Shown in pieces: positions 25,822 through 41,876 of a stretch of 44,307 nt of DNA (position 1 is its first letter; each line of letters begins with the position of its first letter). Under the pieces are notes generated by a model that was not told where the DNA came from, made no database searches, and worked only from the letters and a program-made list of their open reading frames with translations. The stretch lies in IMG/VR virus record IMGVR_UViG_3300030060_003087, positions 1 to 44,307 of that record. One strand, 5' to 3'. A program made the position numbers and the translations under genes. This DNA comes from a virus.

Positions 25822-28800
25822 ATGAAAATAGAATATATATTAAATGGTAAAGTCGTAAAGATTGAACCAAAACATGAAGCATATTTTTTAAAAAATAATC
25901 CTACGGCAATAAAATCTACAGTGCCGGGAAAGTCTCAAGAGGCGGGCCAGCCTCAAACAAATCAACAAACAAATACGGAATTACAGTCGGGAGATGGTTC
26001 TTCGGACTCAGTAAAGAAATTTAAACTAAACAATAAGGTTGTAAAAGTTGATTCTAAGAATGTAGATTATTTTAAAAAGAATAATCCAGAAGCTGAAGAA
26101 TTAAATTACAAACCAGGAACTTGGCTAGATATTAGAGGAAAAATAAAAAAGATAAATAAATTTGGCACGCTTTTTCCTCTTCTACCTGCTTTACCACAAT
26201 TTATGCTCAGTAGTAAATACGACGGCGATGATAGTATACCTGAAGATGGTGGTTGGATTGAAGATTTAATTGTAGCAGCACAACAAGGTGGTAAAGCTGG
26301 AATGAGTGTTGAAGAGGCATGGGATGTGTATGGTAAAGGAGCTAATATATCAGATGAAGAACTACAAGATTACATCAGTGCTGCTAAAAGAATGGACCAA
26401 ACTAAACAGACTCAAGAACAAGTGTTGTTTCAAAAGGTTTCACAAGATGCTGGTGGCGGGATTTGGGGTACGCTAAAAGGTTTAGCATATAACCCAGGAT
26501 ATGCCCCACAGTTTATAGTATCATCATTAGCAACTATGGTTACTAGTTTAGAAGCTGAGCAAACAGTAGGTGGTGTTATAGCTGGTGGTGCAGCTGGATA
26601 CGCGGTTGGTACTGGAGTTGGTGCTGCAGCTGGTTCTATAGGTGGTCCTGTTGGTGCTTTTTTAGGTGCTGTTGGTGGTGGTGGTATTGGAAGTGTGGGT
26701 GGAGCAATGGGAGGGTTAATTGCTAGTATGGAAACTGGATTAACTCTAACCGACTTATTAAAAGATGAATTAAAGACCAGGGGTATAGATCCAGTAAATG
26801 GATTTAACGAAGAAAATATAAGAAATATACTAGAAGACAAGGAAGCTATTGATAGAATAAAATCTAGATCATTAGCCAGAGGTCTTACTATAGGTGCTAT
26901 AGAGGGCTTGACACTAGGTTTATCAAGAGGTGTTGGTAGTCAACTTGCTAAAACGGCTACAGTTAGTAAGGTAGCAGCAGCTACTGCAACTACAGAAATG
27001 GCTGGTGGTTTTATTGGTGAGGTTGCTGGTCAAGCTGCCGCGGGTCAAGAAATAGATTTAGGTGAAGCTACGCTAGAGGCTATTGGTGAAGCAAAAGGTG
27101 TAGTTAACTCAGCTGACATAATAGCTAGCGTGAGAGGTAGAAAGTATACTGTTAATGGAGAATCTGTAACTAGAGATAAAGCTTTAGAGATACTAAATAA
27201 CAAGCAGATGACAACTTCTGAAAAAACAAAGATTCTTTCTAACATGAAGATTGAAAACGATGAAAACCTACAAAACGTGTTAGATGGGAAGTTAAACGAC
27301 GCTTTGATTGAGGTTGGTATAGACTCTAAAGTTATTGGTATTGAAGATAGAAAAAGATTAGTTGAGTTACAGAAGAAAAAATTAAAAGCAGAAGAAGATG
27401 TTAAGAAGACTGGTGTATTTAAAGTTATAGGTGCTCAAAAAACTTTAGAGAATATTAACAACGAGATAGATGAAATAACTACAGCATACGAAGGTGTACA
27501 TGGTAACACAAAAGACGTTAAGCTATTAGAGCAAGATGCTATAAGTATTGCTCAAGATCTAGCTGAACAAAACTATTTGCGAAACCTTAAAACGTTAGAG
27601 GCAACAATAAAATTTGCCGAAGACAATCAACAGGTTATCGGTAAAGATGTTATAGTTGCTGAATCAGATGTCGATGCTCAAGCATATCACGACATGGCTA
27701 TTGATGAATTTAATAGCAAAATAGAAGATCAAATAAATAACGTTAAAAATAATGAGCAACTAACTACTGAAGAAAAATCAACTCAAATAGAAGAATTAAA
27801 TTCTAAAAAAATAGCAGAATCAGATGTTGCTGGAGCAGATGGTTTTATAGTTGGCGATGTTATAGTTATAAACAAAGACGTGTCTGCTAGCACTAGACAA
27901 ATAAATGTTGGTGCACACGAGTTGTTGCACGGTGTAATTCGTAAGCATATAGATGGTTTAAGTGAAGCTGATAGAACTAAACTAATATCTGATTTCAAAA
28001 ACACTCTAACAGATAGTCAAAGAACATATATTCAAGGTAAGCTAGAAGCTAGAAAAGCTGCTGGTGAAACAGATTTAAATCTAGAAACAACTGAAGAGTG
28101 GTTGACTACATTTTCAGATGGTATAACAAAAGGTGATATAACTTTTGATGAAAGTTTATTTAGCAAAGTTGGTTTATTAATACAAGATGTATTAAGAAAG
28201 TTTAATGAGTTTAGTGGTGGTAGATTAGGTGTTAAGGAATTTGCTGATGGTAGACAAGTTTACAACTTTATGAAAGACTATCAAAAATCTATTAATAAAG
28301 GTAGATTAAGTAGAAGAGCCGTCAAATTAGCAGGCGGTGGGGCTCAGGCTACAACTCAAAGAAAATCTGTATCTGTTTTAGAAGAGAAAGCCGATATTCA
28401 AGCTATGTCTGAATCAATAGATAGGCATGTACCTAAAGATATAACTACCAACGAAGAGTTTTTAACTCCTGATAGAACTAGAATGAGTCCTTATGATAAG
28501 GTCATGCAGGAGGTTTTAATTGATAATACTCTAGATGGTTATATAAATAGATTAGTTATAGCAGATAAAAGCTTAGGCGGTATAACCAATAGATCTGAGA
28601 TTGTTGAAAATATAAAATTTGAGCTGATCAAAAAGATAAGAAGTGAATACAAACCTATTGTTGATGGAAACTATAGAAGTTTATTTAGCTACATATATGG
28701 AGCAGCTGCACAAAAAGGTAAGGGTGGTATAGCTTTTAAATCATTGCTAAATGTTAAAAAAGATTATGCTAAAAGAGTAGATAGAGGAGCAGTTTCTTTA

Positions 28801-31800
28801 GAGGTCAAAACTCCTGAAGGTGTACAGACTAGGCAGGTAGAAGATGTAACAGAAGAAGCTAGTATTGAAACTGAAGATTTATCTATAGCAAAGCAGGCTA
28901 AGCAGATAAGAGATGCTAAGAAAAGAAAACAACAAGGTTTATTAGAAGAAAAACAAACAGGTAAGTTTGTGAATAAAGAATATAATCATAGTAAAGAAAC
29001 TAACAACAAGGTTGAAGGTGTTGTTGAAAGAAGCAACTATGATGTCAATAAACCTTATGAAGCCGTCAAAGAAGACATGATGGCTCAAGAAGATAAAAAT
29101 GCCAAAGTATCTACTGATGTAAATCCCACCGGGGTATTATTTGACGCTTTTGAGGTTATAGCTAGAAATGTATTTGGTGTAAATCCAAAAGCTATTATGG
29201 CTAAGCAGCAAAATTTAAGTAAGTCTGAAAATGAATCTGGTAGAAAGACTATAGCTAATAGAGCTAAAAAAGAAGGTACATTAAGAAAGTATTTAGAAAA
29301 AATATTACCTGATAGAAATTATAATCCTAAAACTAAAAAATCAATTGGTACTTGGGCTGGATTAATAAGATCACTATACACAGATGCTGTAAACGAAAAT
29401 GGTAAACCTATTAGAATAGATAATATTAAAGGTAGGGTTTTAAATTTAGAAAAATTTACAGAGGCTCAACTAGCTGAAATGTTTGGTTTAACGCCAGACT
29501 ACAAACTATTGCCATATAAAAAAGGTTTTAAAGATGGTATGATAAAAGGTGTTGTTGTTGCTGAGTCTGTATTAACAATTAATCAAGCAGCTAGAGTTGC
29601 AGCTAAACAACCTGCTGCACCTATTAGTATAGGTAAACCTAAAGCGATGTTTAGTAAGTCGCCAGGTGAATATATTAAAAATTCTTATAGAGCTGCTACT
29701 AGAGATATTGCTGCTGAGCTAGAAAAAAGATTTGGCTCAAAGTTTTTAATGGAAGGTAGTGTTAAAAATAGACCAGCTCAACTTAAGCAAATTTATGACG
29801 AGAAGACTGGAGAAACATTTGAGCAAGCTAGAGATAGAGTGGCTAATAATTTTGTTGAAAGATTTCCTAGATTTAGAAGAATGTTAATGTTAGGTCTTAC
29901 TGGTGGTGTATCTAGATCCACGTACGGAACAATTGCTAATTTTAATAAAAAAGTTAAGCCAGCTCCAAAGGGTGTTGATGTTATAGAGATAAAAAGAAAC
30001 AAATACACTGTAACCGGTAGGAAACAAAAAGCTAATATTGTAAAATTCTTAAAATCAGTATTTAAATCAGAAAAAAGTAAATTAAAAAACTTAAAAGACT
30101 TTTTTGTAGCTATACAAGATTACATACAGGAAAACCCTAAAGACACGTGGTTGTTTTTAGAAATGCTTAGAGATAGCACGAATGCTGGCATGGGACATGT
30201 AATCAGGATACTAGCGCCTACAAAGTTCTACACAGTCGATCAAAAAACTAAAAAGCCTATATTAAATGAAGATGTAGTTGAAGAGCATACAGATCCGCAG
30301 AATCAAATAGGTACAGCTCTTTTATATGCAGCTATAAATGGTAATGTTAATGAAGTGTTTAGTGTTATTGGTGGTTCTTATATGCAAGGTTCTATCTTAA
30401 TAACTGAAGATAACAAAATAAATAACGTTATTAAAGATCCTAAAAAGCGTAGCTTAAGCAAAGATATGCCTGATATTTATTTTGATATAATAATACCTAG
30501 GCTAAAAAATGGTTCACTAAAACTACCGCCTGGTATGGCATCTGTTGTTAGACTAGCTGTTCAAGGTGTAAACTTAAATCAATTAATGCTTGTAGATACC
30601 GATCAAACTATAGCAGAGTATTTTGGTGTTGGACTTGATGTTAAAAACATGACTAACAACCAAATAAATAGGATGGTTTCAGCTCAAAATCAATTAGTTG
30701 TAATGCAATTAATTGGTGAAACAACTAAAGCTAAAGCCACTAAAGCTATTAAAGTAATATCAAGTACTAAGTTTAAATTAACAAAGAAAAAAGCTAAAGC
30801 TCTTATAGATAGTAAAGATGCTGCTATAAATCAAATAGAGTTTAGTAAAAGCCCTGAAGAAAGAGGTATGTCTACTTTTGACTTTGATGATACATTAGCT
30901 AAAACAAAATCAGGTGTTAGAGTTACACTTCCTAATCTAGATGGTGAACCAAAGCCAAAAAGAAAAGTTATATTTCTAGCTGGTGGAGCTGGTAGTGGTA
31001 AAGGCAATGTTGTTAGAAAATTAGGTTTAGAAAAACAAGGTTTTAAAATAGTTAACCAAGATATATCATTAGAGTGGTTGAAGAAAAACCATGGCTTACC
31101 TGCAGACATGAAAAATTTAACTAAAGAACAGAGAAGTACTTTAGGAAAATTAGGTCATCAAGCTAGGGGTATCGCTAGAAGAAAAATGATGAAATACCAA
31201 GGTAACGCAGATGGTGTTGTGGTTGATGGAACTGGTGCTTCTAGTAGGAACATGCAAAAGCTTGTAGACGAGTTTGAGGCTAAGGGATATGATGTTAGTA
31301 TGATATACGTAGAAACATCGTTAGATGTAGCGTTACAACGTAATAGGGCTAGACAAGAACGTTCACTGCTTGATGTTATAGTTAGACGTAACCACGAGTC
31401 TGTTCAAAATAATAAATCTACATTTAAAGAAATGTTTGGTAAAAGATTTATGGAGGTTAATACAGATAATCTAACGATAGATAGTCCTATGCCAGAAACT
31501 TTAACAGAAAAAGTTAATGACTTTGTTTTTAGTTATGAGAAACAAAGAATTGACGCTGAAGAATTTGCTGCTCGTGGAAATGAAATACTTGAGCAAGGAG
31601 GTAAGTTTGACTTTTCAGAGTTTAATGAAGTTGTAGAAGGGGCACCTGGACCATTACTTAATAAAGCTATAGAAAGAGCTAAAAAATACGGAACAAAAGA
31701 TATGTTTGTATTAACAGCTAGACCAGCTGAATCTGCTAAAGCTATACAAGAGTTTTTAAAATCACAAGGCTTAAATATACCTATAGAAAATATCACTGGA

Positions 31801-34269
31801 CTAGCCGATAGTACTGGTGAAGCTAAAGCAATGTGGATGTTGCAAAAATTTGCTGAAGGTTATAATAATTTGTATTTTGTTGATGATGCTTTTCAAAATG
31901 TAAAAGCTGTTCAAGATGTATTAAATCAATTAGATGCTAAATCTGAAGTAGTACAAGCAAAAGCTAGATTTAGTAAATCAGCTAGTCAAGAGTTTAATCA
32001 AATAATTGAAGAGTCACAAGGCACGGAAGCTAGTAGAGTAATTTCTCAAGCTGAAGCTAAAAGATTGGGGAGACATAAAGGCTGGTGGAGAATATTTGTT
32101 CCACCATCGGCAGAGGATTTTAAAGGTTTATTATATAGATTTTTAGGTACAGGTAAAGTTGGTGACACGCACATGGCTTGGTTTAAAGACAACTTGTTGG
32201 ATCCATTTGCTAAAGGAATAAGATCTTGGAATATCTATAAGCAAAACATGGTAAACGAATACAAGCAGTTAAAAAAGAATTTTAAAGATGTAACTAAGTC
32301 TTTAAATGATAAAGTTCCTGGAACAACATTTACTGTTGACACGGCTATAAGAGTGTATTTATGGAAAAAAGCCGGATTTGAAATACCTGGATTAGATATT
32401 GCAACTGAAAATAAACTCAACGATTACGTTCTTAACAATATAGAGGTAAGAAACTTTGCTGATGTCTTAAGTGAAATAACTCAAACTAAAAATGGTTATG
32501 TTAAACCTGGTAGTAATTGGAGTATACAAACTATAGCAACTGATTTAAATAATGTTGTAAACAAGATTGGTAGAAAACAATTTTTAGCAGAGTACCTAGC
32601 TAATGTTGAAGCTATTTTTACTCCAGAAAACATGAATAAAATAGAAGCTTTATATGGAACTAGTTTTAAAGAAGCTTTAGAAAACATATTATACCGTATG
32701 GAAAACGGTAGGAATAGAAATAGAATATACGATAGGAACTCTAATAGATTATTAAATTGGGTTAATGGCTCTATAGGTGCTATAATGTTCTTTAACATGA
32801 GATCTGCTATACTTCAAACTATATCTACTGTTAACTTTATCAACTGGAGTGATAACAATATATTTAAAGCATCTGCTGCATTTGCTAATCAAAAACAATT
32901 TTGGTCTGACTTTGCTATGTTGTTTAACTCGCCTCAGTTAAAACAAAGAAGAGCTGGTATACAAATAGATGTATCAGCATCAGAACTTTCAAAAGCTTTT
33001 TCTGACGGTAGAGGTACACCACAATCTGTTATAAACTGGTTGTTAGAAAAGGGTTTTACACCTACTCAAATAGCTGATAGTTTTGCCATAGCATTTGGTG
33101 GCTCTTCTTTTATTAGAAATAGAATAAAAACCTACATGAAGCAAGGTATGACTGAGGCTGAAGCTAAAGAAAAAGCGATGCTTGACTTTCAGGAAATAGC
33201 TGAAGAAACACAGCAGTCTTCAAGAGAAGATTTAATATCTCAACAACAAGCTAGTGTTTTAGGTAGATTAGTTTTAGCTTTTCAAAATGTAACAATGCAA
33301 TACACGCGTTTAACTAAAAAGGCTTTATCTGATATAGTAAACCGAAGAGGTGATATGAAAACTAATATTTCTAAGGTCATATACTACGGTGCTGTTCAAA
33401 ACATTATATTCGCGTCACTGCAAAGTGCTTTACTTTTTATACTTTGGGGAGATAATGAAGACGAAGAAGTTATAGATGATAAAGCCAAAAGAACATTAAA
33501 CTCTGCTTTCGATTCTCTACTAAGAGGTACAGGTATGTATGGAGCTGCTGTCGCGGCAATAAAAAACACTATACTTAGATGGCAGGTTGAAAAAGAAAAA
33601 GGTTGGAGAAGAGATGATGGTAGAATAATACTAGAAGCATTAAATTTTTCTCCACCTATTGGTAGTAAGCTTAGAAAAATATATTCAGCTATTAAAACAG
33701 AGTCTTATAATATGTACGAAATTAGTGATGAGATAGGTTTTAGAATAGAGAACCCTAAGTTATATGCTTTAGCTAGTATAATAGAAGCTGCAACTAACAT
33801 ACCACTACAAAGACTAGTTAGAAAGGCAAATAATTTAGAAGAAGCTATAACAAGTCAACATGAAACATGGCAGCGTATAGCACTAGCTTTGGGTTGGGAC
33901 ATGTGGTCATTAGGTATAAAAGACGAGGAGCTAGAACAAGCTAAACAAGATGTTAAGAAAAACATAAACGATAGAAAAATAGAGGATAAGCGTAAGAAGA
34001 AGGAGGATAAAGAAAAGGATATGCAGAAAAGGGGTTTTAAAAAGATTAGATGCTCTGGTACGAGATCAAACGGTGAGAGATGTAAGATAATGTCAGACTA
34101 TACTAAAGATAAGAAATTCTTATGCACACATCACATGGAGTTTAAAGATGGTATGGATAGAGATGGCGATGGATTAAAAGAATATAGATGCACTGCTATA
34201 AAATCTAATGGCAAAAGATGTAAGAATAAAACAGAGAATAAAAATAAGAAGTGTTATGCTCATCAATAA
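25822..34269 (+). CDS. Giant polyvalent ejection-type protein (zincin, HAD with inserted kinase, zinc knuckles)
   Basis: A 2815-residue protein. Residues 5-30 and 67-91 repeat one module (Y-I-L-N-G-K-V-V-K / F-K-L-N-N-K-V-V-K, each followed by a KNNP-type motif). Residues about 247-300 are a Gly/Ala-rich membrane-like segment. HELLH at 699-703 is a zincin motif. FDFDDT at 1686-1691, LTARP at 1964-1968 and VDD at 2020-2022 are HAD phosphatase motifs, with a P-loop (GGAGSGKG, 1721-1728) inserted between the first two. Residues about 2270-2560 resemble a membrane-associated C-terminal domain of phage polyvalent proteins. Two zinc knuckles occupy 2744-2814. Position after two ejection genes suggests it is injected with the DNA. 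The linker FSKS occurs at 1277, 1674 and 2050. I saw no polymerase motif. Confidence 0.7.
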   Translation: MKIEYILNGKVVKIEPKHEAYFLKNNPTAIKSTVPGKSQEAGQPQTNQQTNTELQSGDGSSDSVKKFKLNNKVVKVDSKNVDYFKKNNPEAEELNYKPGTWLDIRGKIKKINKFGTLFPLLPALPQFMLSSKYDGDDSIPEDGGWIEDLIVAAQQGGKAGMSVEEAWDVYGKGANISDEELQDYISAAKRMDQTKQTQEQVLFQKVSQDAGGGIWGTLKGLAYNPGYAPQFIVSSLATMVTSLEAEQTVGGVIAGGAAGYAVGTGVGAAAGSIGGPVGAFLGAVGGGGIGSVGGAMGGLIASMETGLTLTDLLKDELKTRGIDPVNGFNEENIRNILEDKEAIDRIKSRSLARGLTIGAIEGLTLGLSRGVGSQLAKTATVSKVAAATATTEMAGGFIGEVAGQAAAGQEIDLGEATLEAIGEAKGVVNSADIIASVRGRKYTVNGESVTRDKALEILNNKQMTTSEKTKILSNMKIENDENLQNVLDGKLNDALIEVGIDSKVIGIEDRKRLVELQKKKLKAEEDVKKTGVFKVIGAQKTLENINNEIDEITTAYEGVHGNTKDVKLLEQDAISIAQDLAEQNYLRNLKTLEATIKFAEDNQQVIGKDVIVAESDVDAQAYHDMAIDEFNSKIEDQINNVKNNEQLTTEEKSTQIEELNSKKIAESDVAGADGFIVGDVIVINKDVSASTRQINVGAHELLHGVIRKHIDGLSEADRTKLISDFKNTLTDSQRTYIQGKLEARKAAGETDLNLETTEEWLTTFSDGITKGDITFDESLFSKVGLLIQDVLRKFNEFSGGRLGVKEFADGRQVYNFMKDYQKSINKGRLSRRAVKLAGGGAQATTQRKSVSVLEEKADIQAMSESIDRHVPKDITTNEEFLTPDRTRMSPYDKVMQEVLIDNTLDGYINRLVIADKSLGGITNRSEIVENIKFELIKKIRSEYKPIVDGNYRSLFSYIYGAAAQKGKGGIAFKSLLNVKKDYAKRVDRGAVSLEVKTPEGVQTRQVEDVTEEASIETEDLSIAKQAKQIRDAKKRKQQGLLEEKQTGKFVNKEYNHSKETNNKVEGVVERSNYDVNKPYEAVKEDMMAQEDKNAKVSTDVNPTGVLFDAFEVIARNVFGVNPKAIMAKQQNLSKSENESGRKTIANRAKKEGTLRKYLEKILPDRNYNPKTKKSIGTWAGLIRSLYTDAVNENGKPIRIDNIKGRVLNLEKFTEAQLAEMFGLTPDYKLLPYKKGFKDGMIKGVVVAESVLTINQAARVAAKQPAAPISIGKPKAMFSKSPGEYIKNSYRAATRDIAAELEKRFGSKFLMEGSVKNRPAQLKQIYDEKTGETFEQARDRVANNFVERFPRFRRMLMLGLTGGVSRSTYGTIANFNKKVKPAPKGVDVIEIKRNKYTVTGRKQKANIVKFLKSVFKSEKSKLKNLKDFFVAIQDYIQENPKDTWLFLEMLRDSTNAGMGHVIRILAPTKFYTVDQKTKKPILNEDVVEEHTDPQNQIGTALLYAAINGNVNEVFSVIGGSYMQGSILITEDNKINNVIKDPKKRSLSKDMPDIYFDIIIPRLKNGSLKLPPGMASVVRLAVQGVNLNQLMLVDTDQTIAEYFGVGLDVKNMTNNQINRMVSAQNQLVVMQLIGETTKAKATKAIKVISSTKFKLTKKKAKALIDSKDAAINQIEFSKSPEERGMSTFDFDDTLAKTKSGVRVTLPNLDGEPKPKRKVIFLAGGAGSGKGNVVRKLGLEKQGFKIVNQDISLEWLKKNHGLPADMKNLTKEQRSTLGKLGHQARGIARRKMMKYQGNADGVVVDGTGASSRNMQKLVDEFEAKGYDVSMIYVETSLDVALQRNRARQERSLLDVIVRRNHESVQNNKSTFKEMFGKRFMEVNTDNLTIDSPMPETLTEKVNDFVFSYEKQRIDAEEFAARGNEILEQGGKFDFSEFNEVVEGAPGPLLNKAIERAKKYGTKDMFVLTARPAESAKAIQEFLKSQGLNIPIENITGLADSTGEAKAMWMLQKFAEGYNNLYFVDDAFQNVKAVQDVLNQLDAKSEVVQAKARFSKSASQEFNQIIEESQGTEASRVISQAEAKRLGRHKGWWRIFVPPSAEDFKGLLYRFLGTGKVGDTHMAWFKDNLLDPFAKGIRSWNIYKQNMVNEYKQLKKNFKDVTKSLNDKVPGTTFTVDTAIRVYLWKKAGFEIPGLDIATENKLNDYVLNNIEVRNFADVLSEITQTKNGYVKPGSNWSIQTIATDLNNVVNKIGRKQFLAEYLANVEAIFTPENMNKIEALYGTSFKEALENILYRMENGRNRNRIYDRNSNRLLNWVNGSIGAIMFFNMRSAILQTISTVNFINWSDNNIFKASAAFANQKQFWSDFAMLFNSPQLKQRRAGIQIDVSASELSKAFSDGRGTPQSVINWLLEKGFTPTQIADSFAIAFGGSSFIRNRIKTYMKQGMTEAEAKEKAMLDFQEIAEETQQSSREDLISQQQASVLGRLVLAFQNVTMQYTRLTKKALSDIVNRRGDMKTNISKVIYYGAVQNIIFASLQSALLFILWGDNEDEEVIDDKAKRTLNSAFDSLLRGTGMYGAAVAAIKNTILRWQVEKEKGWRRDDGRIILEALNFSPPIGSKLRKIYSAIKTESYNMYEISDEIGFRIENPKLYALASIIEAATNIPLQRLVRKANNLEEAITSQHETWQRIALALGWDMWSLGIKDEELEQAKQDVKKNINDRKIEDKRKKKEDKEKDMQKRGFKKIRCSGTRSNGERCKIMSDYTKDKKFLCTHHMEFKDGMDRDGDGLKEYRCTAIKSNGKRCKNKTENKNKKCYAHQ

Positions 34270-35777: not shown

Positions 35778-36269
35778 ATGAACTTAGAAGTAATTAGATT
35801 TTCCAGTGGTACTGATAGTACTAATGGAATATTATTTGAAACAATACAACAAGGAAACGAAATAGATGGTATATTTAAACAAAAAAAATTCTTAGCGTAT
35901 ACACTAGAAGATGAACAGCGTAATGAAAAGGTTTATGGAGAAACTAGAATACCTAATGGAACATACAAGTTGGGTCTTAGAAAAGTTGGTGGATATCATG
36001 CAAAATATTCTAAACGCTTTTCTCATATTCATATTGGTATGCTTCACGTGCTTGACGTTCCTGGTTTTGAGTACATACTTATTCACTGTGGAAATACTGA
36101 TGAACACACAGCAGGGTGTTTACTTGTCGGGGACTCACAAGAAAATAACCAAATCACGACGGACGGTTTTATAGGTAAATCAACTCAAGCGTATAAAAGA
36201 ATTTATCCACGTATAGCAGAAGCTATTGAGTGTGGAGAGAAAGTTACAATAACATATAAGACTATCTAA
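35778..36269 (+). CDS. DUF5675-like protein, lysis enzyme candidate
   Basis: A 163-residue protein. Its core, LAYTLEDEQRNEK near residues 39-51, RIPNGTYKLGLRKVGGYHAKYS at 57-77 and IHCGNTDEHTAGCLLVG at 102-118, matches the DUF5675 family as I know it. The last motif, His103 with T-A-G-C114 (H-x-G-N-x(3-4)-T-x-G-C), resembles the catalytic His/Cys arrangement of L,D-transpeptidase-like folds, so attack on or remodelling of peptidoglycan is plausible. Phages often place the family near holins and spanins. No signal peptide is present, so release would depend on a holin. Catalysis is inference. The stop overlaps the next start (TAATG at 36267-36271). Confidence 0.6.
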   Translation: MNLEVIRFSSGTDSTNGILFETIQQGNEIDGIFKQKKFLAYTLEDEQRNEKVYGETRIPNGTYKLGLRKVGGYHAKYSKRFSHIHIGMLHVLDVPGFEYILIHCGNTDEHTAGCLLVGDSQENNQITTDGFIGKSTQAYKRIYPRIAEAIECGEKVTITYKTI

Positions 36270-36397
36270 TGGCCAAGAAAGTTTATACATTTGAAAAAAA
36301 GAAACGTGTAAAAAGAGGTGTACACGCTAAATCAAAGACCTCAAAATTTAAAGGTAGTAGTAACTACAAAAAAGCATATAACGGACAAGGAAAATGA
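36269..36397 (+). CDS. Small highly basic protein (42 residues)
   Basis: A 42-residue protein starting in a TAATG overlap and ending in an ATGA overlap. It is very basic (KKKRVKRGVHAKSKTSKFKG and a final YKKAYNGQGK). The RGVHAKSKTSKxKGSxNYKK outline is conserved in small proteins of Bacteroidota phages as I recall. It probably binds nucleic acid. It immediately precedes the outer-membrane-type gene. Tight overlaps on both sides favour a real gene. Confidence 0.55.
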   Translation: MAKKVYTFEKKKRVKRGVHAKSKTSKFKGSSNYKKAYNGQGK

Positions 36398-37446
36398 AAA
36401 AATTAATTATATTATTTTTATTGATTAGTACTATTTGTACTGCTCAAATAAAAGACTTCTTTAAATACTCAACGTTCTATACATCGATGACGATGGGTAC
36501 GTCGTTTGTAGAAACAGAAGACTATACTGCTGTCGACAAAGGGTATGAAGATGTTACAGAAATTAATCCATATGATTACAACTTAACAATTGGTATAAGA
36601 AAAATCGCGCGTATGGATTATGAATACAAAGTTAAGACATGGTACTACGGAACAGAAGATGGTGTAAGTGATAATGTGACGATAGGTAATGCTGTTGGTT
36701 GGGAATACTTACTCAACTATTCTTTTATTCGGGAACGTGGAGAAAAGTTTAATAATCAAAACGTTTGGTTAAGATATTTAGGTAACAGTTGTGTTACTAA
36801 AATGCAATACACAGATAACCAAAGAGTTAATTTAAGGTTTGGGTCATTTGACACTAGATTTAGATTAACAAAAGGTAATTGGGATTTTACTATTGGTGCT
36901 GTTGCTAGAATACACCCAGTGTATGGTGTAACTCCAATAGATGATTTTTGGGTACCAGGAGAAAATACATTTCAAGATCTAGCAGAAGACTTTGGTTATG
37001 CGTCAGAACCTTGGATTCAAGGATTTTATATCGACCAGAATTGGTACGATGTTAGTGGTGGAGACTCACTCCTGATCGCTACCTCTAATGACGAGTTCTT
37101 CCACCACTATTTCGGCGACGCTGTTGCTAGGTTTAACGAGCGTGAGCTTGAAAAATTAGGTTTACAAAGAGAGCTTAGTGCTGTTGTGGGTTTAGCTTAC
37201 TACAAGTACACACCTAAACTATGGTTGCACTTTTGGTTAAACTGCTTGCCACTACATTACGGTTTAGACAAATACTCATTTGAATATGGAGAAGAAAAAT
37301 ATGACAACATCGAGTGGGATGCTGGTGTTGTATTCGGCTCAAGGATCACTAAATCACTTGGGATGTTTATTGAAGGAACTCACATGAAGTATTGGAATAA
37401 ACCAGTATATGAAGTGAAGTTTGGTTTTAACTATTTAATACTTTAA
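36394..37446 (+). CDS. Secreted outer-membrane-type beta-barrel protein
   Basis: A 350-residue protein. Residues 1-19 are a signal peptide (MKKLIILFLLISTICTAQ), with the A-Q end common in Flavobacteriia. The mature part has many 8-12-residue amphipathic strands rich in Tyr, Trp and Phe (MDYEYKVKTWYYG; VNLRFGSFDTRFRLTKG; NWDFTIGAVARIHP; VVGLAYYKYTPKLWLHFWLN; VYEVKFGFNYLIL at the end), in hairpins with short polar turns, as in outer-membrane barrels. The final strand ends L-I-L rather than F. A phage-made outer-membrane protein could block the receptor against other phages, alter uptake or help lysis. The gene follows a small basic gene and precedes the leader-peptide proteins. No exact family identified. 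Confidence 0.6.
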   Translation: MKKLIILFLLISTICTAQIKDFFKYSTFYTSMTMGTSFVETEDYTAVDKGYEDVTEINPYDYNLTIGIRKIARMDYEYKVKTWYYGTEDGVSDNVTIGNAVGWEYLLNYSFIRERGEKFNNQNVWLRYLGNSCVTKMQYTDNQRVNLRFGSFDTRFRLTKGNWDFTIGAVARIHPVYGVTPIDDFWVPGENTFQDLAEDFGYASEPWIQGFYIDQNWYDVSGGDSLLIATSNDEFFHHYFGDAVARFNERELEKLGLQRELSAVVGLAYYKYTPKLWLHFWLNCLPLHYGLDKYSFEYGEEKYDNIEWDAGVVFGSRITKSLGMFIEGTHMKYWNKPVYEVKFGFNYLIL

Positions 37447-37448
37447 CT

Positions 37449-37898
37449 ATGGCGTTTAAAATGAAAGGCTTTTCTGGTTTTAAAAGAGTTGATCCATATG
37501 CTGATCAAAAAGCTGCAAAACAAGATTATTATAAAAAAGAAAAGGATAAAAAAGAAAATTATTACAAAGAGAAAAAAGGTGTAGAAAAAGAACCAGAAGT
37601 TAACACTAGAAAAAAGTTTAAAGATACTAAGGTTGGTAAATTTATAGGCGTAGGCCAAGGAGATAAAAGAAAAGTTAATAGAGCAAAAAGATTAATAAGA
37701 AAAAACGTTGGTAATACCACTGTGGATTCACCTGTTTACAATGAGCGTAAATTTAAAAGATCAGACAGAAAAGTAAACAAAGCTGTAGATTTATTACGTA
37801 AAACTGGTAAATCAGAGGAAGAGATAGAAATCGCAACTGGAGCTGGTGGCTATAAACCAGCTATTGAATACGCGAGAAAAAAGAAAAAGAAAAAATAA
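37449..37898 (+). CDS. Lys-rich protein with MAFKMKG leader (member A)
   Basis: A 149-residue protein of which 36 residues are Lys. The N-terminus MAFKMKGFSGFK is shared with the proteins at 38699, 39727 and 42488. Residues 20-60 are a charged helix (KKEKDKKENYYKEKKG), residues about 94-97 hold DSPV, and the end is a run of Lys. There is no signal peptide or enzyme motif. High positive charge in the host cytoplasm suggests nucleic-acid binding, and the shared leader suggests a common fate such as packaging into the head (inference). It starts 2 bases after the outer-membrane gene stop. Confidence 0.6.
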   Translation: MAFKMKGFSGFKRVDPYADQKAAKQDYYKKEKDKKENYYKEKKGVEKEPEVNTRKKFKDTKVGKFIGVGQGDKRKVNRAKRLIRKNVGNTTVDSPVYNERKFKRSDRKVNKAVDLLRKTGKSEEEIEIATGAGGYKPAIEYARKKKKKK

Positions 37899-37916: not shown

Positions 37917-38696
37917 ATGAAGAAATATATTATAATACTGTTTGCGTTTATTAGCTCGTTCGTTAATGCGCAAGAATACGATTTTCAACAATTATGTTTA
38001 GACTGCGCTGAAGCAGAAGGTTATTACTGTGGAGATGATCCAGCTAACTGGACTCAATACGCGCCAATGGGTTGCGTGCAAAACTCTTGGTTAAATGATG
38101 GTTGGATAGACTGCGTGGATGAAGGTGATGAAAACGGTGCTGTTCCAACAACCGCTGAAGAATGTGCTCCACAGCCACCGCTACCTTGTGATACAGTATA
38201 TGTTGATATTCCTGTTATAGAAATAGATACTATTGAGGTTGAAGTACCATTTTATATATATGAAACAGTAATTCAATTTGATACAATAGTTGAAACCGAA
38301 TATATAACAAACATCGTTATAGACACGTTTGAGATTGAAACTTTTGTTCCAGAATACATTTATATAACTGACACGGTTTTTGTTTACGAGGATGTATTAG
38401 ATACATTATATATTGATGTTATTGAATATGTTGACGTTGTTGTTTACGACACGATAGTAGAAACACAAACTGAATATATAGAAATATTTGTAGTTGATAC
38501 AGTTGTAGAATACATTGAAGTGATAAACACAGAGTACATAGACTGTGATTCAGGCTTGCCTTGTAATTCCGCTATTATGGAGATAGTAGATAAATCTAAA
38601 ACAAATGGTGTAATATATAATATAAAGGGACAAGCGGTTCAAGTAAGAGAAGGCCTGTACATTGAAGACGGAAAAATTAATTATAAAATAAAGTAA
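37917..38696 (+). CDS. Secreted acidic repeat protein with T9SS-like C-terminus
   Basis: A 259-residue protein. Residues 1-19 are a signal peptide ending NAQ. Residues 27-83 have seven Cys and a WLNDGWIDCVDEGDE segment that resembles the calcium-binding end of an LDL-receptor class A module. Residues 91-208 are a low-complexity stretch of Asp, Glu, Ile, Val, Thr and Tyr with eight hDT[IVLF] units (CDTVYV, IDTIEV, FDTIVE, IDTFEI, TDTVFV, LDTLYI, YDTIVE, VDTVVE) and repeated TEYI. Residues 231-259 (GVIYNIKGQAV...GLYIEDGKINYKIK) resemble the C-terminal sorting domain of the Bacteroidota type IX secretion system, which anchors proteins at the cell surface. Surface display in infected cells is inferred. 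It sits between two Lys-rich leader proteins. Confidence 0.6.
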   Translation: MKKYIIILFAFISSFVNAQEYDFQQLCLDCAEAEGYYCGDDPANWTQYAPMGCVQNSWLNDGWIDCVDEGDENGAVPTTAEECAPQPPLPCDTVYVDIPVIEIDTIEVEVPFYIYETVIQFDTIVETEYITNIVIDTFEIETFVPEYIYITDTVFVYEDVLDTLYIDVIEYVDVVVYDTIVETQTEYIEIFVVDTVVEYIEVINTEYIDCDSGLPCNSAIMEIVDKSKTNGVIYNIKGQAVQVREGLYIEDGKINYKIK

Positions 38697-38698
38697 CT

Positions 38699-38974
38699 AT
38701 GCCATTTAAACTAAAGGGGTTTTCGGGTTTTAAGTCTAAAAAGAAAACTGGTAAAAAAAACATACAAGCTAAAGTAGATAAAACTAAAGTTTATAATCCT
38801 ACTCTTTTAACTGATAGAGAAAAGTTTTTACTTGCTGAATCGAATAGATTGCAAGCTAATAAAAATAGGAAAGATGGAAAATTTGATCCTCATCCATCAG
38901 GGGGAGGACCAGATAAATATGGTGGACCAGTAGGTACATCAACTAAAGTATCAAAAAAATATAGAATAAAATAA
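38699..38974 (+). CDS. Lys-rich protein with MPFKLKG leader (member B)
   Basis: A 91-residue basic protein beginning MPFKLKGFSGFKSKKKTGKK, nearly the same first 12 residues as the protein at 37449. The rest has a helix (FLLAESNRLQANKNRKDG) and ends with GGGPDKYGGPVGTSTKVSKKYR; the GP-x-KYGG motif recurs at the end of the protein at 40479. There is no signal peptide. The two shared motifs link it to other genes of this block. Function unknown. It starts 2 bases after the previous stop, so it is in the same transcript. Confidence 0.55.
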   Translation: MPFKLKGFSGFKSKKKTGKKNIQAKVDKTKVYNPTLLTDREKFLLAESNRLQANKNRKDGKFDPHPSGGGPDKYGGPVGTSTKVSKKYRIK

Positions 38975-38975
38975 A

Positions 38976-39320
38976 ATGGCAAAAGAACTATCAGAAGACA
39001 GTAAATTTCAAATAAGCATTAAAACACTAGTTGGTATTGTCGTGGCTGTTGCTACGGTGATATCAGCTTACTTTGGTTTAATGAGTACTATTAACTCTAA
39101 GTTTAACGATCTAGAAGTTAAAGTACAAGAAGCTTTAGAAAAACCAGTACCAGGAACAGGTACATACACTATTGATATGGGTGATCCAGCAGCTACTAAC
39201 ACTTGGCCGCCAACTCGCATGGAGTTTAACATGAAGGATCAAATGGCTCGTAATCAAATTGACGCGTTAGTAAAGGAAGTTGATGAGTTGAAAGACGAAA
39301 TAAAACTATTAAGACAATGA
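38976..39320 (+). CDS. Membrane-anchored coiled-coil protein (spanin-like topology)
   Basis: A 114-residue protein. Residues 1-14 are polar (MAKELSEDSKFQIS), residues about 17-38 are one hydrophobic helix (LVGIVVAVATVISAYFGLM), residues 39-60 are charged, and a Gly/Pro/Thr-rich linker (PVPGTGTYTIDMGDPAATNTWPP) leads to a C-terminal coiled coil (NQIDALVKEVDELKDEIKLL). This N-in topology with a periplasmic coiled coil is that of inner-membrane spanins and some other lysis or envelope proteins. It overlaps the next gene by 4 bases (ATGA), so the two membrane-linked products are coupled. No family identified. Confidence 0.5.
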   Translation: MAKELSEDSKFQISIKTLVGIVVAVATVISAYFGLMSTINSKFNDLEVKVQEALEKPVPGTGTYTIDMGDPAATNTWPPTRMEFNMKDQMARNQIDALVKEVDELKDEIKLLRQ

Positions 39321-39724
39321 AAAAAAGAATAGACGTTACAACTTGGGCGTATGTTGCTACTATAGTAATAATATATTTTCTAGGCACAGCAATGGGTTTA
39401 GCTCAAGAGGTTATTACCGCTAGTAATTTTGATAGTAAAATAGCTAAAGATATTTCTGTAGTAGAATTTTGGGCTGATTGGAATAAACAAAATCAATTTG
39501 AAGAAATAAATAAATTAAAAGAAGCTAGTAAATATAGAGTTGATATAATGCATTGCTCTGATTTACAAGCTGAGTACAATATAACAGCTATACCTACAAT
39601 TGTTATATTCGACAATGGTGTGGAAAAATGTAGGTTTAACGCAAACATTATGTTTCAATTAGAGGCTGATAAAAAAGTTATACAAAATTCTATTGATACA
39701 ATAATACTAAATAAATTTCAATAA
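39317..39724 (+). CDS. Exported thioredoxin-fold protein lacking CxxC
   Basis: A 135-residue protein. Residues 5-30 form a hydrophobic signal peptide or anchor (WAYVATIVIIYFLGTAMGLAQ). Residues 33-135 have the thioredoxin layout: VVEFWADWNKQN at 48-59, YRVDIMHCSDLQAEYNITAIPTIVIFDNG at 73-101 with the cis-Pro at 93, and a final helix. In active thioredoxins the first motif is FWAxWCxxC; here the two cysteines are Asn56 and Asn59, so the redox activity is lost, while Cys80 and Cys103 lie elsewhere. The fold may act as a binding or chaperone module in the periplasm (inference). It follows the coiled-coil membrane protein by overlap. Confidence 0.65.
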   Translation: MKKRIDVTTWAYVATIVIIYFLGTAMGLAQEVITASNFDSKIAKDISVVEFWADWNKQNQFEEINKLKEASKYRVDIMHCSDLQAEYNITAIPTIVIFDNGVEKCRFNANIMFQLEADKKVIQNSIDTIILNKFQ

Positions 39725-40478: not shown

Positions 40479-40799
40479 ATGGCTTACATACAGAAAAATA
40501 ATCCTATACCTAGAACTGGTTGCGGTAGACGTCGTATGGAGCAGATGACTAATCCTTTTAAAATAAGTAAAGCTTCTCTCTCTAAGGTTTCTACTCAATT
40601 AAAAAAAGCTAGCAAACTACACGCTGATCAAGCTAGTAAAATAGATAAAGCTATTGATAGTCCTATGAAAAAAATAAGTGGACCATGTAAAGCCGCGGCT
40701 AAGCGTAAGTTTAAAGTGTGGCCAAGTGCTTATGCTTCTGGTTGGGGCGTAAGATGCACTAAAGCTGGTGGTCCTAGTAAATATGGAGGTAGTAAGTAA
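40479..40799 (+). CDS. Small basic protein with MAYIQK leader and DUF5872-like tail
   Basis: A 106-residue protein starting MAYIQKNNPIPRTGCGRRRM, a leader shared with those at 41876 and 42151. Residues about 61-67 hold DSPMKK. The C-terminal part, GPCKAAAKRKFKVWPSAYASGWGVRC, resembles DUF5872, a small domain found in phages and giant viruses (from memory), and is followed by GGPSKYGG. Charge suggests nucleic-acid binding. It shares DSP(L/M)KK with the next protein, which suggests shared function or localisation. Start and previous stop are 2 bases apart. Confidence 0.55.
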   Translation: MAYIQKNNPIPRTGCGRRRMEQMTNPFKISKASLSKVSTQLKKASKLHADQASKIDKAIDSPMKKISGPCKAAAKRKFKVWPSAYASGWGVRCTKAGGPSKYGGSK

Positions 40800-41341
40800 T
40801 GGCTAAGAAAACATCTAAGTCAATCACTTGGCATGACTCAGACGCGCCAGATGCTAAAGGTAAATTTAAAGAATTAGCACCAAACGCTTTAGCGTCATGG
40901 CTTATTAAAACTAGAAAAGGTAACTTATCTAAAATAATAAGTAGTTTAAATCAACAGTACGTTTTTAATAGAGGTAAAAAACCTAGCTATGCTCGTAAGA
41001 TGAAAACAGTTATGAACATAGTTAGAAAACGTTTAGGTAAAAAAGAAGATTCACCTCTTAAAAAAGATCCACTAGTTGGAACAGGTAAAAAACCTAAAGG
41101 TAGTGGAAGAAGATTATATACAGATGAAAATCCTAAAGATACTGTTGGTATTAAGTTTGCAACAGTAGCTGATGCTAGAAAGACTATAGCTAAAGTTATG
41201 AATATAAACAAACCATATGCTAGAAAGGTACAGATATTAACTGTGTTAGAACAGAGAGCTAAAGTTATGGGTAAAATGGAACAAGCTAGATTAGCTAAAG
41301 CTGCTAAAGCTAAATTAAAAAAGCAAAATAAAAATGTTTAA
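40799..41341 (+). CDS. Basic protein with DUF5824-like domain
   Basis: A 180-residue Lys-rich protein. Residues 10-78 are one helical region (WHDSDAPDAKGKFKELAPNALASWLIKTRKGN, then YARKMKTVMNIVRKRLGK). Residues about 83-88 hold DSPLKK. Then GTGKKPKGSGRRLYTDENPKDTVGIKF, a pattern I associate with DUF5824, is followed by a C-terminal helix with an Ala/Lys-rich end. It begins in a TAATG overlap with the previous gene and overlaps the PAP2 gene by 8 bases. The function of the domain is unknown. Basic nature and SPLKK suggest DNA contact (inference). Confidence 0.55.
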   Translation: MAKKTSKSITWHDSDAPDAKGKFKELAPNALASWLIKTRKGNLSKIISSLNQQYVFNRGKKPSYARKMKTVMNIVRKRLGKKEDSPLKKDPLVGTGKKPKGSGRRLYTDENPKDTVGIKFATVADARKTIAKVMNINKPYARKVQILTVLEQRAKVMGKMEQARLAKAAKAKLKKQNKNV

Positions 41342-41876
41342 AGGTTTTGATATAGATAAGTTTAAAAATATAAAACCGCCTTCTGATAATTCTTTTAATA
41401 CAATGCAGGAGGTAAAGCAACTTAATACTATACCTATGAACAAAACATCTGTTCAACGGTATGATAACATAGAAAAAACATTTGCTGATATAGCTGCTAA
41501 AAATAATATAACTAACTATGACTCTAAGTTAGTTGGTGATTTGATAAAAAAATCTGCACCTATAGTAACTAAATTAAAAAAACATTTCAATAGGCCTAGA
41601 CCTAAAGTTATAGCCAAAAAGTTAGGTATTAATATGCAAGACTACGAAATGAACTCTATGAAAACACCATCATATCCTAGTGGTCACTCAACTCAAGGTG
41701 TATTAATCGGTAAAGTGCTGGCAGATAAGTTTCCTAAAGCATCAAAAGAATTTATCAAAGCTGGTAAAAAAATATCTGATAGTAGAAGAACAGCTAAAGC
41801 TCATTATAAATCTGATAGTATAATGGGTGAAAAGTTAGGTGAAGCAATGTATCAACACGTAAAAGATAAAGTGTAA
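41334..41876 (+). CDS. PAP2-family phosphatase (soluble)
   Basis: A 180-residue protein with all three signature motifs of the PAP2 / class A acid phosphatase superfamily at correct spacing: KX6RP at residues 82-90 (K82 to R89-P90), PSGH at 115-118, and SRX5HX3D at 150-161 (S150, R151, H157, D161). These bind the phosphate and supply the catalytic His pair. There is no signal peptide and no clear membrane helix, so it is probably cytoplasmic or delivered in another way; lipid-linked or soluble phosphate esters are possible substrates. PAP2 in a phage structural-side block is unusual. It overlaps the previous gene by 8 bases and the following start by 1 (TAATG). Confidence 0.78.
   Translation: MFKGFDIDKFKNIKPPSDNSFNTMQEVKQLNTIPMNKTSVQRYDNIEKTFADIAAKNNITNYDSKLVGDLIKKSAPIVTKLKKHFNRPRPKVIAKKLGINMQDYEMNSMKTPSYPSGHSTQGVLIGKVLADKFPKASKEFIKAGKKISDSRRTAKAHYKSDSIMGEKLGEAMYQHVKDKV

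Follow-up and report, generated by a model that had tools for sequence, protein, structure and literature searches.

A candidate two-gene envelope cassette of marine Bacteroidota phages combining a predicted outer-membrane barrel with an LDLa-like repeat protein that ends in a short type A-like tail

The window analyzed here comprises the 44,307 nucleotides of the IMG/VR virus record IMGVR_UViG_3300030060_003087 and contains, at positions 37917-38696 of the plus strand, a gene for a predicted exported protein composed of an LDLa-like module, acidic xDT repeats and a short C-terminal tail resembling the type A sorting domains of the type IX secretion system (T9SS). Together with a second gene (36394-37446, plus strand), which encodes a putative outer-membrane beta-barrel of 350 aa, this gene would make up an accessory envelope cassette of marine Bacteroidota phages. 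In the reading preferred here, to which a probability of about 0.5 is assigned, the focal protein would leave the cytoplasm through Sec, transit the T9SS of the host by means of its miniature type A-like tail and modify the surface of the infected cell, most likely with a block of phage adsorption as the outcome. Even if T9SS plays no part, the conserved barrel/LDLa-repeat pair is a two-gene system that is uncharacterised and occurs on hundreds of viral contigs.

An intact open reading frame spans 37917-38696, its product being 259 aa long. The product starts with a signal peptide recognized by inspection (residues 1-18, MKKYIIILFAFISSFVNA followed by Q, that is VNA/Q at the predicted cleavage site; 37917-37970) which is of the Sec/SPase I type, lacks a lipobox and is kept in all aligned relatives. 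Next comes a Cys-rich LDLa-like module with six Cys (residues 19-87; 37971-38177), delimited by profile and fold searches and shared with a bacterial T9SS-type cargo protein, and a stretch of acidic xDT[IV] repeats (residues 88-206; 38178-38534) which was defined by composition and is devoid of Lys and Arg. The C-terminal part (residues 207-259; 38535-38693), outlined from the alignment and the structural model, includes two further conserved Cys in a D-C-D-S/T-G-x-P-C pair, a short helix at residues 220-230 and finally the miniature type A-like tail (residues 233-259; 38613-38693). Within this tail Y234-x3-G238 is the counterpart of the Lb3b4 motif of T9SS sorting domains, and G246-x-Y248 together with the terminal Lys probably that of the C-t motif; the end itself, YNIKGQAVQVREGLYIEDGKINYKIK at residues 234-259, follows the pattern YNxxGQxI...GLYIxxGKIxYK. 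The first-pass annotation of this DNA had described a signal peptide, an LDLa-like Cys module, acidic repeats and a YNIKGQ...GLYI...YKIK-type end, and this description proved accurate, with the repeats extending over 119 residues.

Considering that a first IMG/VR scan retrieved 42 relatives (55-96% identity), that a module-only scan found the Cys module encoded on at least 228 viral contigs and that all parts of the gene are under purifying selection (dN/dS 0.16-0.34, with dS near saturation), the frame is not a chance ORF. Scans with single parts of the system found the tail in at least 128 contigs and the barrel in at least 245. Nine Cys are invariant in the family alignment, as are Y234, G238, Y248, I249 and G252, and the weakest constraint falls on the tail (dN/dS 0.26-0.34 vs. 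0.16, dS again being near saturation). The focal protein, its tail and the barrel partner were not found among the isolate phages of the collection searched.

The assignment of the N-terminal module is based on several weak but concordant matches. The Pfam LDLa model (PF00057) scores 15.7 bits in the window protein, under its 24.1-bit cut-off, and is reached at E<=1 by 27 of 40 family members (best E 4.2e-4); a profile search of the PDB and a fold search with the model return, with weak scores, almost exclusively LDLa modules. The calcium-ligand pattern W58..D61..D65..D71-E72 is found at LDLa spacing, position 58 being W or Y, and the motif [WY]-[LI]-N-D...D-C...D-E occurs in 43/43 sequences; the positions of these ligands in LDLa modules (W, D, D, D-E) are those known from LDL receptor repeat 5. 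The canonical six-Cys order of LDLa is not followed: six Cys are present with a different spacing, and Asn60 stands in the place of the fourth. Since the ligands are kept at the right spacing and the fourth Cys is replaced, the module is best described as LDLa-like, non-canonical and probably calcium-binding. The ligand spacing makes a calcium site of LDLa type plausible, and binding of calcium by this head is rated somewhat better than an even chance.

In one collection of species-representative genomes the sole bacterial relative of the module was a 1138-aa protein (hereafter L044) encoded on PBMY01000001.1 of a Crocinitomicaceae MAG, and no other emerged when 395 genomes of the same class were searched. 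L044 contains a signal peptide, two copies of the module (62% identical to that of the phage) and, at full length, a type A T9SS domain which reads VYPVPTSEN...LYDATGR...LGSGIYTMQI.... Judged from its sequence, L044 is a link between the module and a T9SS-type protein of a Bacteroidota bacterium that is independent of the phage tail.

The repeat region (119 aa) contains 29 Asp plus Glu residues, no Lys or Arg and eight DT pairs. Throughout the family 298 of 311 distances from one DT to the next are even (the relatives are not independent of each other), and they take many values between 5 and 30 residues. Insertions and deletions that preserve even parity over so many lengths suggest an extended beta conformation in which all DT pairs would lie on one face, and the register suggested by the even spacing is that of a beta-strand or a solenoid. 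The AlphaFold model of the region is not confident (pLDDT about 22).

The tail was compared with T9SS sorting domains at the level of curated profiles, profile-profile alignments, motifs and fold. Curated T9SS profiles (TIGR04183, PF18962 Por_Secre_tail and type B) match neither the window protein nor 40 family members, even at E 10 in NCBIfam, and none exceeds its cut-off in 41 related phage records; the curated T9SS model also yields weak signal in E. coli and other controls. Other T9SS-domain proteins were sought in the related phages and dismissed, the search having given three sub-threshold matches (12.4-12.7 bits), of which the one inspected (L080) lacks the features of a sorting tail. 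Because the curated models are not matched, a custom type A reference alignment was built from 49 matched segments, taken from genomes mostly of Crocinitomicaceae, the family of the bacterial relative. In hhalign comparisons against this alignment the tail scores 23.9 (71%), and 76-86% in two windows that include the complete motif, whereas 200 column shuffles give 8.9 +/- 2.35 with a maximum of 20.0, none of the 200 reaching the score of the tail; windows of the focal protein which do not extend into the tail stay under 1%. When the 69 distinct tails are used as a profile, type A is matched at 77% and type B at 7%. The type B sorting domain was rejected on the basis of hhalign values (0.5-7%) within the range of the shuffles.

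The profile alignment covers about 20 columns around Y-x3-G, while the G-x-Y...K end, which lies outside this local alignment, was matched by eye, position and conservation only. The Tyr and Gly of the Lb3b4 motif (Y-x3-G, at the turn between strands 3 and 4) are invariant in the 69 distinct tails, and at the C-terminal motif Gly is found in 66/69, Tyr in 69/69, Ile in 69/69 and Lys in 58/69. Both motifs, Lb3b4 and C-t, are required for secretion in P. gingivalis as shown by mutation (PMC11285876; the motif definitions are also taken from PMC10202324). At about 27 residues the tail has about a third of the length of a 70-100 aa sorting domain and lacks its YPNP half; in the model, the part after residue 219 is built of a single helix plus three short strands (pLDDT about 70) and not of the seven-strand Ig-like sandwich. 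In P. gingivalis a foreign CTD was not properly secreted, and the usual length of a type A CTD is 70-100 aa (PMC11285876). As it matches neither the curated profile nor the fold of the type A family, the focal tail is not classed as a member of that family, though it may still function like a type A signal. A T9SS-sorting-domain-like end, as the first-pass annotation had it, is upheld in part, by profile-profile similarity to type A, confined to the tail, and not by the curated type A and B profiles; between the two types considered for the C-terminal residues, hhalign supports A and gives no support to B. The end is also conserved in related phages, with Y, G, Y, I and G invariant in all distinct tails, so that the lack of conservation that would have spoken against the annotation was not found.

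Tails of comparable length terminate proteins of bacterial origin. A search with the tail across the 395 genomes mentioned above produced weak and mixed matches, the useful ones amounting to a single genome in which several short tails occur and to type A domains in which the motif recurs; solved CTD structures of P. gingivalis do not appear among the sequence-search matches of the tail. An SprA-positive genome of the Bacteroidia (G200) encodes several exported proteins (L111-L115) with equally short ends, for instance IYNLNGQYIGSAIDNLPKGVYIINGKKILVK, and PDB entry 7JVI ends in a short tail of the same length and motif order, 4KCA being another such entry that was included in the search profile. 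Tails of the form YNLxGQ...GIYIxNGKK close otherwise unrelated exported Bacteroidia proteins (G200, 4KCA, 7JVI) and apparently represent a cut-down sorting tail. The literature searched held nothing on the mechanism or T9SS dependence of short tails, on short tails working in flavobacteria or on LDLa modules in Bacteroidota phages. Given that 97% of the class has SprA, the co-occurrence of short tails with T9SS is uninformative.

The partner gene lies upstream of the focal gene and was assigned from its signal peptide and structural model. The barrel was modeled with moderate confidence (pTM 0.61) and gives Z scores of 14.9 to Tsx, 13.9 to KdgM and 13.9 to EstA; no function is deduced from these PDB matches as many unrelated barrels score alike. 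An identity as PorP/SprF was considered and rejected (no Pfam match, PF11751 included; hhalign 0.3% without the signal peptide). The association of the two genes was evaluated in the best 80 loci retrieved with each of three queries, namely tail, barrel and module. Among these, all 80 tail-bearing proteins have the same architecture, the module included, and each of their loci contains a barrel gene; the focal gene is present in 78/80 barrel loci, the two exceptions stopping at a sequence edge; and 79/80 module proteins possess the tail (the exception is cut off) with a barrel gene in the available flank of 78/80. Wherever a contig extends far enough the two genes occur together, the exceptions inspected being truncated by a sequence end.

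Three other genes of the plus strand are frequent in the 42 related loci: one for a DUF5675 protein (35778-36269; 27/42, either before or after the pair), one for a small membrane or coiled-coil protein of holin-like appearance (38976-39320; 38/42, usually following the focal gene) and one for a thioredoxin-fold protein (39317-39724; a usual neighbor, 37/42). The last has an N-terminal membrane or signal segment and a Pfam match at E 1.7e-9, and reads EFWADWNKQN where CxxC is expected.

Additional features of the window were recorded in the course of the analysis. Small basic proteins encoded at 37449, 39727 and 42488 start with MAFKMK... and that at 38699 with MPFKLKG..., being otherwise unlike; FKMK-type starts occur in 11/42 related loci (25 ORFs). 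Others, at 40479, 41876 and 42151, start with M[AV]YIQxxNPF/I while the rest of their sequences is unlike. These N-termini resemble a shared tag for targeting or packaging. A PAP2-superfamily phosphatase-like protein (41334-41876; 31.6 bits vs. a cut-off of 27.2) is encoded amid these small proteins. The large ORF at 25822-34269 (2815 residues) shows by eye a P-loop motif (FLAGGAGSGKGN), a metallopeptidase-like GAHELLHGV stretch and, at the C-terminus, two Cys/His zinc-finger-like repeats; related stretches are found in some of the loci.

The pair is distributed over diverse phage backbones. Records that bear it encode terminases from 99% down to about 25% identical to that of the window while the focal protein stays at 55-96%, and just one of 18 long contigs with close terminases (some of them fragments, several >50 kb) carries the pair. 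On account of the diversity of terminases and the patchiness among close relatives, the pair is regarded as an accessory cassette that appears mobile between backbones. The hosts of isolate phages whose terminases are related belong to Flavobacterium, Cellulophaga, Tenacibaculum and Maribacter, and the T9SS translocon SprA is present in 383 of the 395 genomes of the class of L044; these two observations make a T9SS-positive Bacteroidota the likely host of the window phage.

In the sequence of events proposed for this cassette, both proteins would leave the cytoplasm through their Sec signal peptides, which for the focal protein is almost certain, and the partner would fold as a beta-barrel in the outer membrane. 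The host T9SS would then carry the focal protein across the outer membrane by reading the Y-x3-G and G-x-Y...K motifs of the tail, a step rated somewhat better than an even chance. Thereafter the protein may remain on the surface of the infected cell, held by or near the barrel, for which the chances appear evenly divided. There a calcium-binding LDLa-like head and a stiff acidic stalk of beta-type repeats would alter the surface and keep competing or sibling phages from adsorbing, by superinfection exclusion or receptor masking; this purpose is suggested by analogy and is tentative, falling short of an even chance. Masking, aggregation and calcium-related roles of a displayed protein, as the first-pass annotation had envisaged, are conjecture. 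A bolder proposition is that a T9SS domain of which the phage has kept no more than the motifs for recognition (about 27 residues) and a dedicated barrel unrelated to known shuttles together form a portable device for surface display which spreads between unrelated backbones and remodels the surface of infected cells; in this full form it is considered doubtful.

The principal competing explanation dispenses with T9SS altogether: the protein would be exported by Sec only, and the tail, as a small unit of folding or docking, would bind the barrel or periplasmic components, its likeness to type A being ancestral or convergent. The failure of the curated T9SS profiles and the absence of most of the sorting domain are in keeping with such a role, as is the observation that, over the phage loci examined, the tail is confined to the focal protein and the barrel is always alongside. 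However, what the tail appears to retain of the whole domain is just the pair of motifs on which secretion is known to depend, its similarity is specific to type A, unrelated exported Bacteroidia proteins end in equally short tails and the bacterial relative of the module bears a true sorting domain, so that export by Sec only is rated unlikely.

Still less probable is a lysis or egress cassette, in which the barrel and the acidic protein would open or weaken the outer membrane late in infection, like spanins, in conjunction with the holin-like and DUF5675 proteins. Its appeal comes from the location of the pair after the structural genes and from the recurrent DUF5675, small membrane/coiled-coil and thioredoxin-fold neighbors, but the holin and endolysin functions of these neighbors are guesses from appearance and position, and neither protein of the pair has a lipobox or a spanin-like feature. 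Moreover, the pair was not found in 17 of the 18 long contigs with close terminases, and from this accessory distribution lysis seems not to need it. Repeats of beta type and of varying length are common in fibers, and the focal gene directly follows genes of the tail region, which could indicate a virion adhesin or fiber in which the hydrophobic N-terminus would not act as a signal peptide and the LDLa head and beta repeats would serve adsorption. Every relative, however, has a canonical signal peptide, which together with nine invariant Cys suggests an oxidizing compartment, and strict pairing with an outer-membrane barrel that has its own signal peptide as well as a bacterial relative which is an exported T9SS-type cargo render a virion component very improbable. 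Passage through Sec and T9SS to the surface of the infected cell is the reading retained.

If this reading is true, the tail would be a natural minimal T9SS signal and would help to establish what the machinery actually reads within the 70-100 residues of the domain. Common marine phages would actively display a protein of their own on infected Bacteroidota, and barrel plus cargo would represent a new portable envelope module of phages, possibly devoted to superinfection exclusion, in an abundant group of marine hosts for which such systems are hardly known.

The focal tail shares with the type A domain (TIGR04183/PF18962; e.g., HBP35 and RgpB) a C-terminal location on a protein with a signal peptide, the Y-x3-G element and apparently the G-x-Y...K end, and differs from it in size (about 27 vs. 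70-100 residues), in the absence of the YPNP half and of the Ig fold and in scores under the curated cut-offs. The short tails of Bacteroidia (4KCA, 7JVI and the G200 proteins) are closer in length and motif order and are likewise borne by exported proteins, although these are bacterial and mostly larger than the focal protein. L044 begins, like the focal protein, with a signal peptide and the Cys module, and diverges in its middle region and in having a full-length type A domain. The arrangement of a barrel gene adjoining the gene of an exported surface protein recalls the pairs of type B substrate and PorP/SprF in flavobacteria (PMC12618676), but the barrel of the window has no PorP/SprF similarity and the focal tail is not of type B. 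Among phages, type A domains are reported on an endoglucanase, a GH39 enzyme and a PA14 protein from the variable genes of Cryophage, all predicted cargo of the host T9SS (PMC7468147), and crAss-like phages encode crAss-BACON ORFs with T9SS domains (PMC6949934). Phage-encoded T9SS cargo has therefore already been published (Cryophage, PMC7468147); whereas the Cryophage and crAss-BACON proteins are reported to bear recognizable T9SS or type A domains, what differs in the present case is the miniature signal, the LDLa-like and acidic repeat cargo on which it is found and the barrel that accompanies it.
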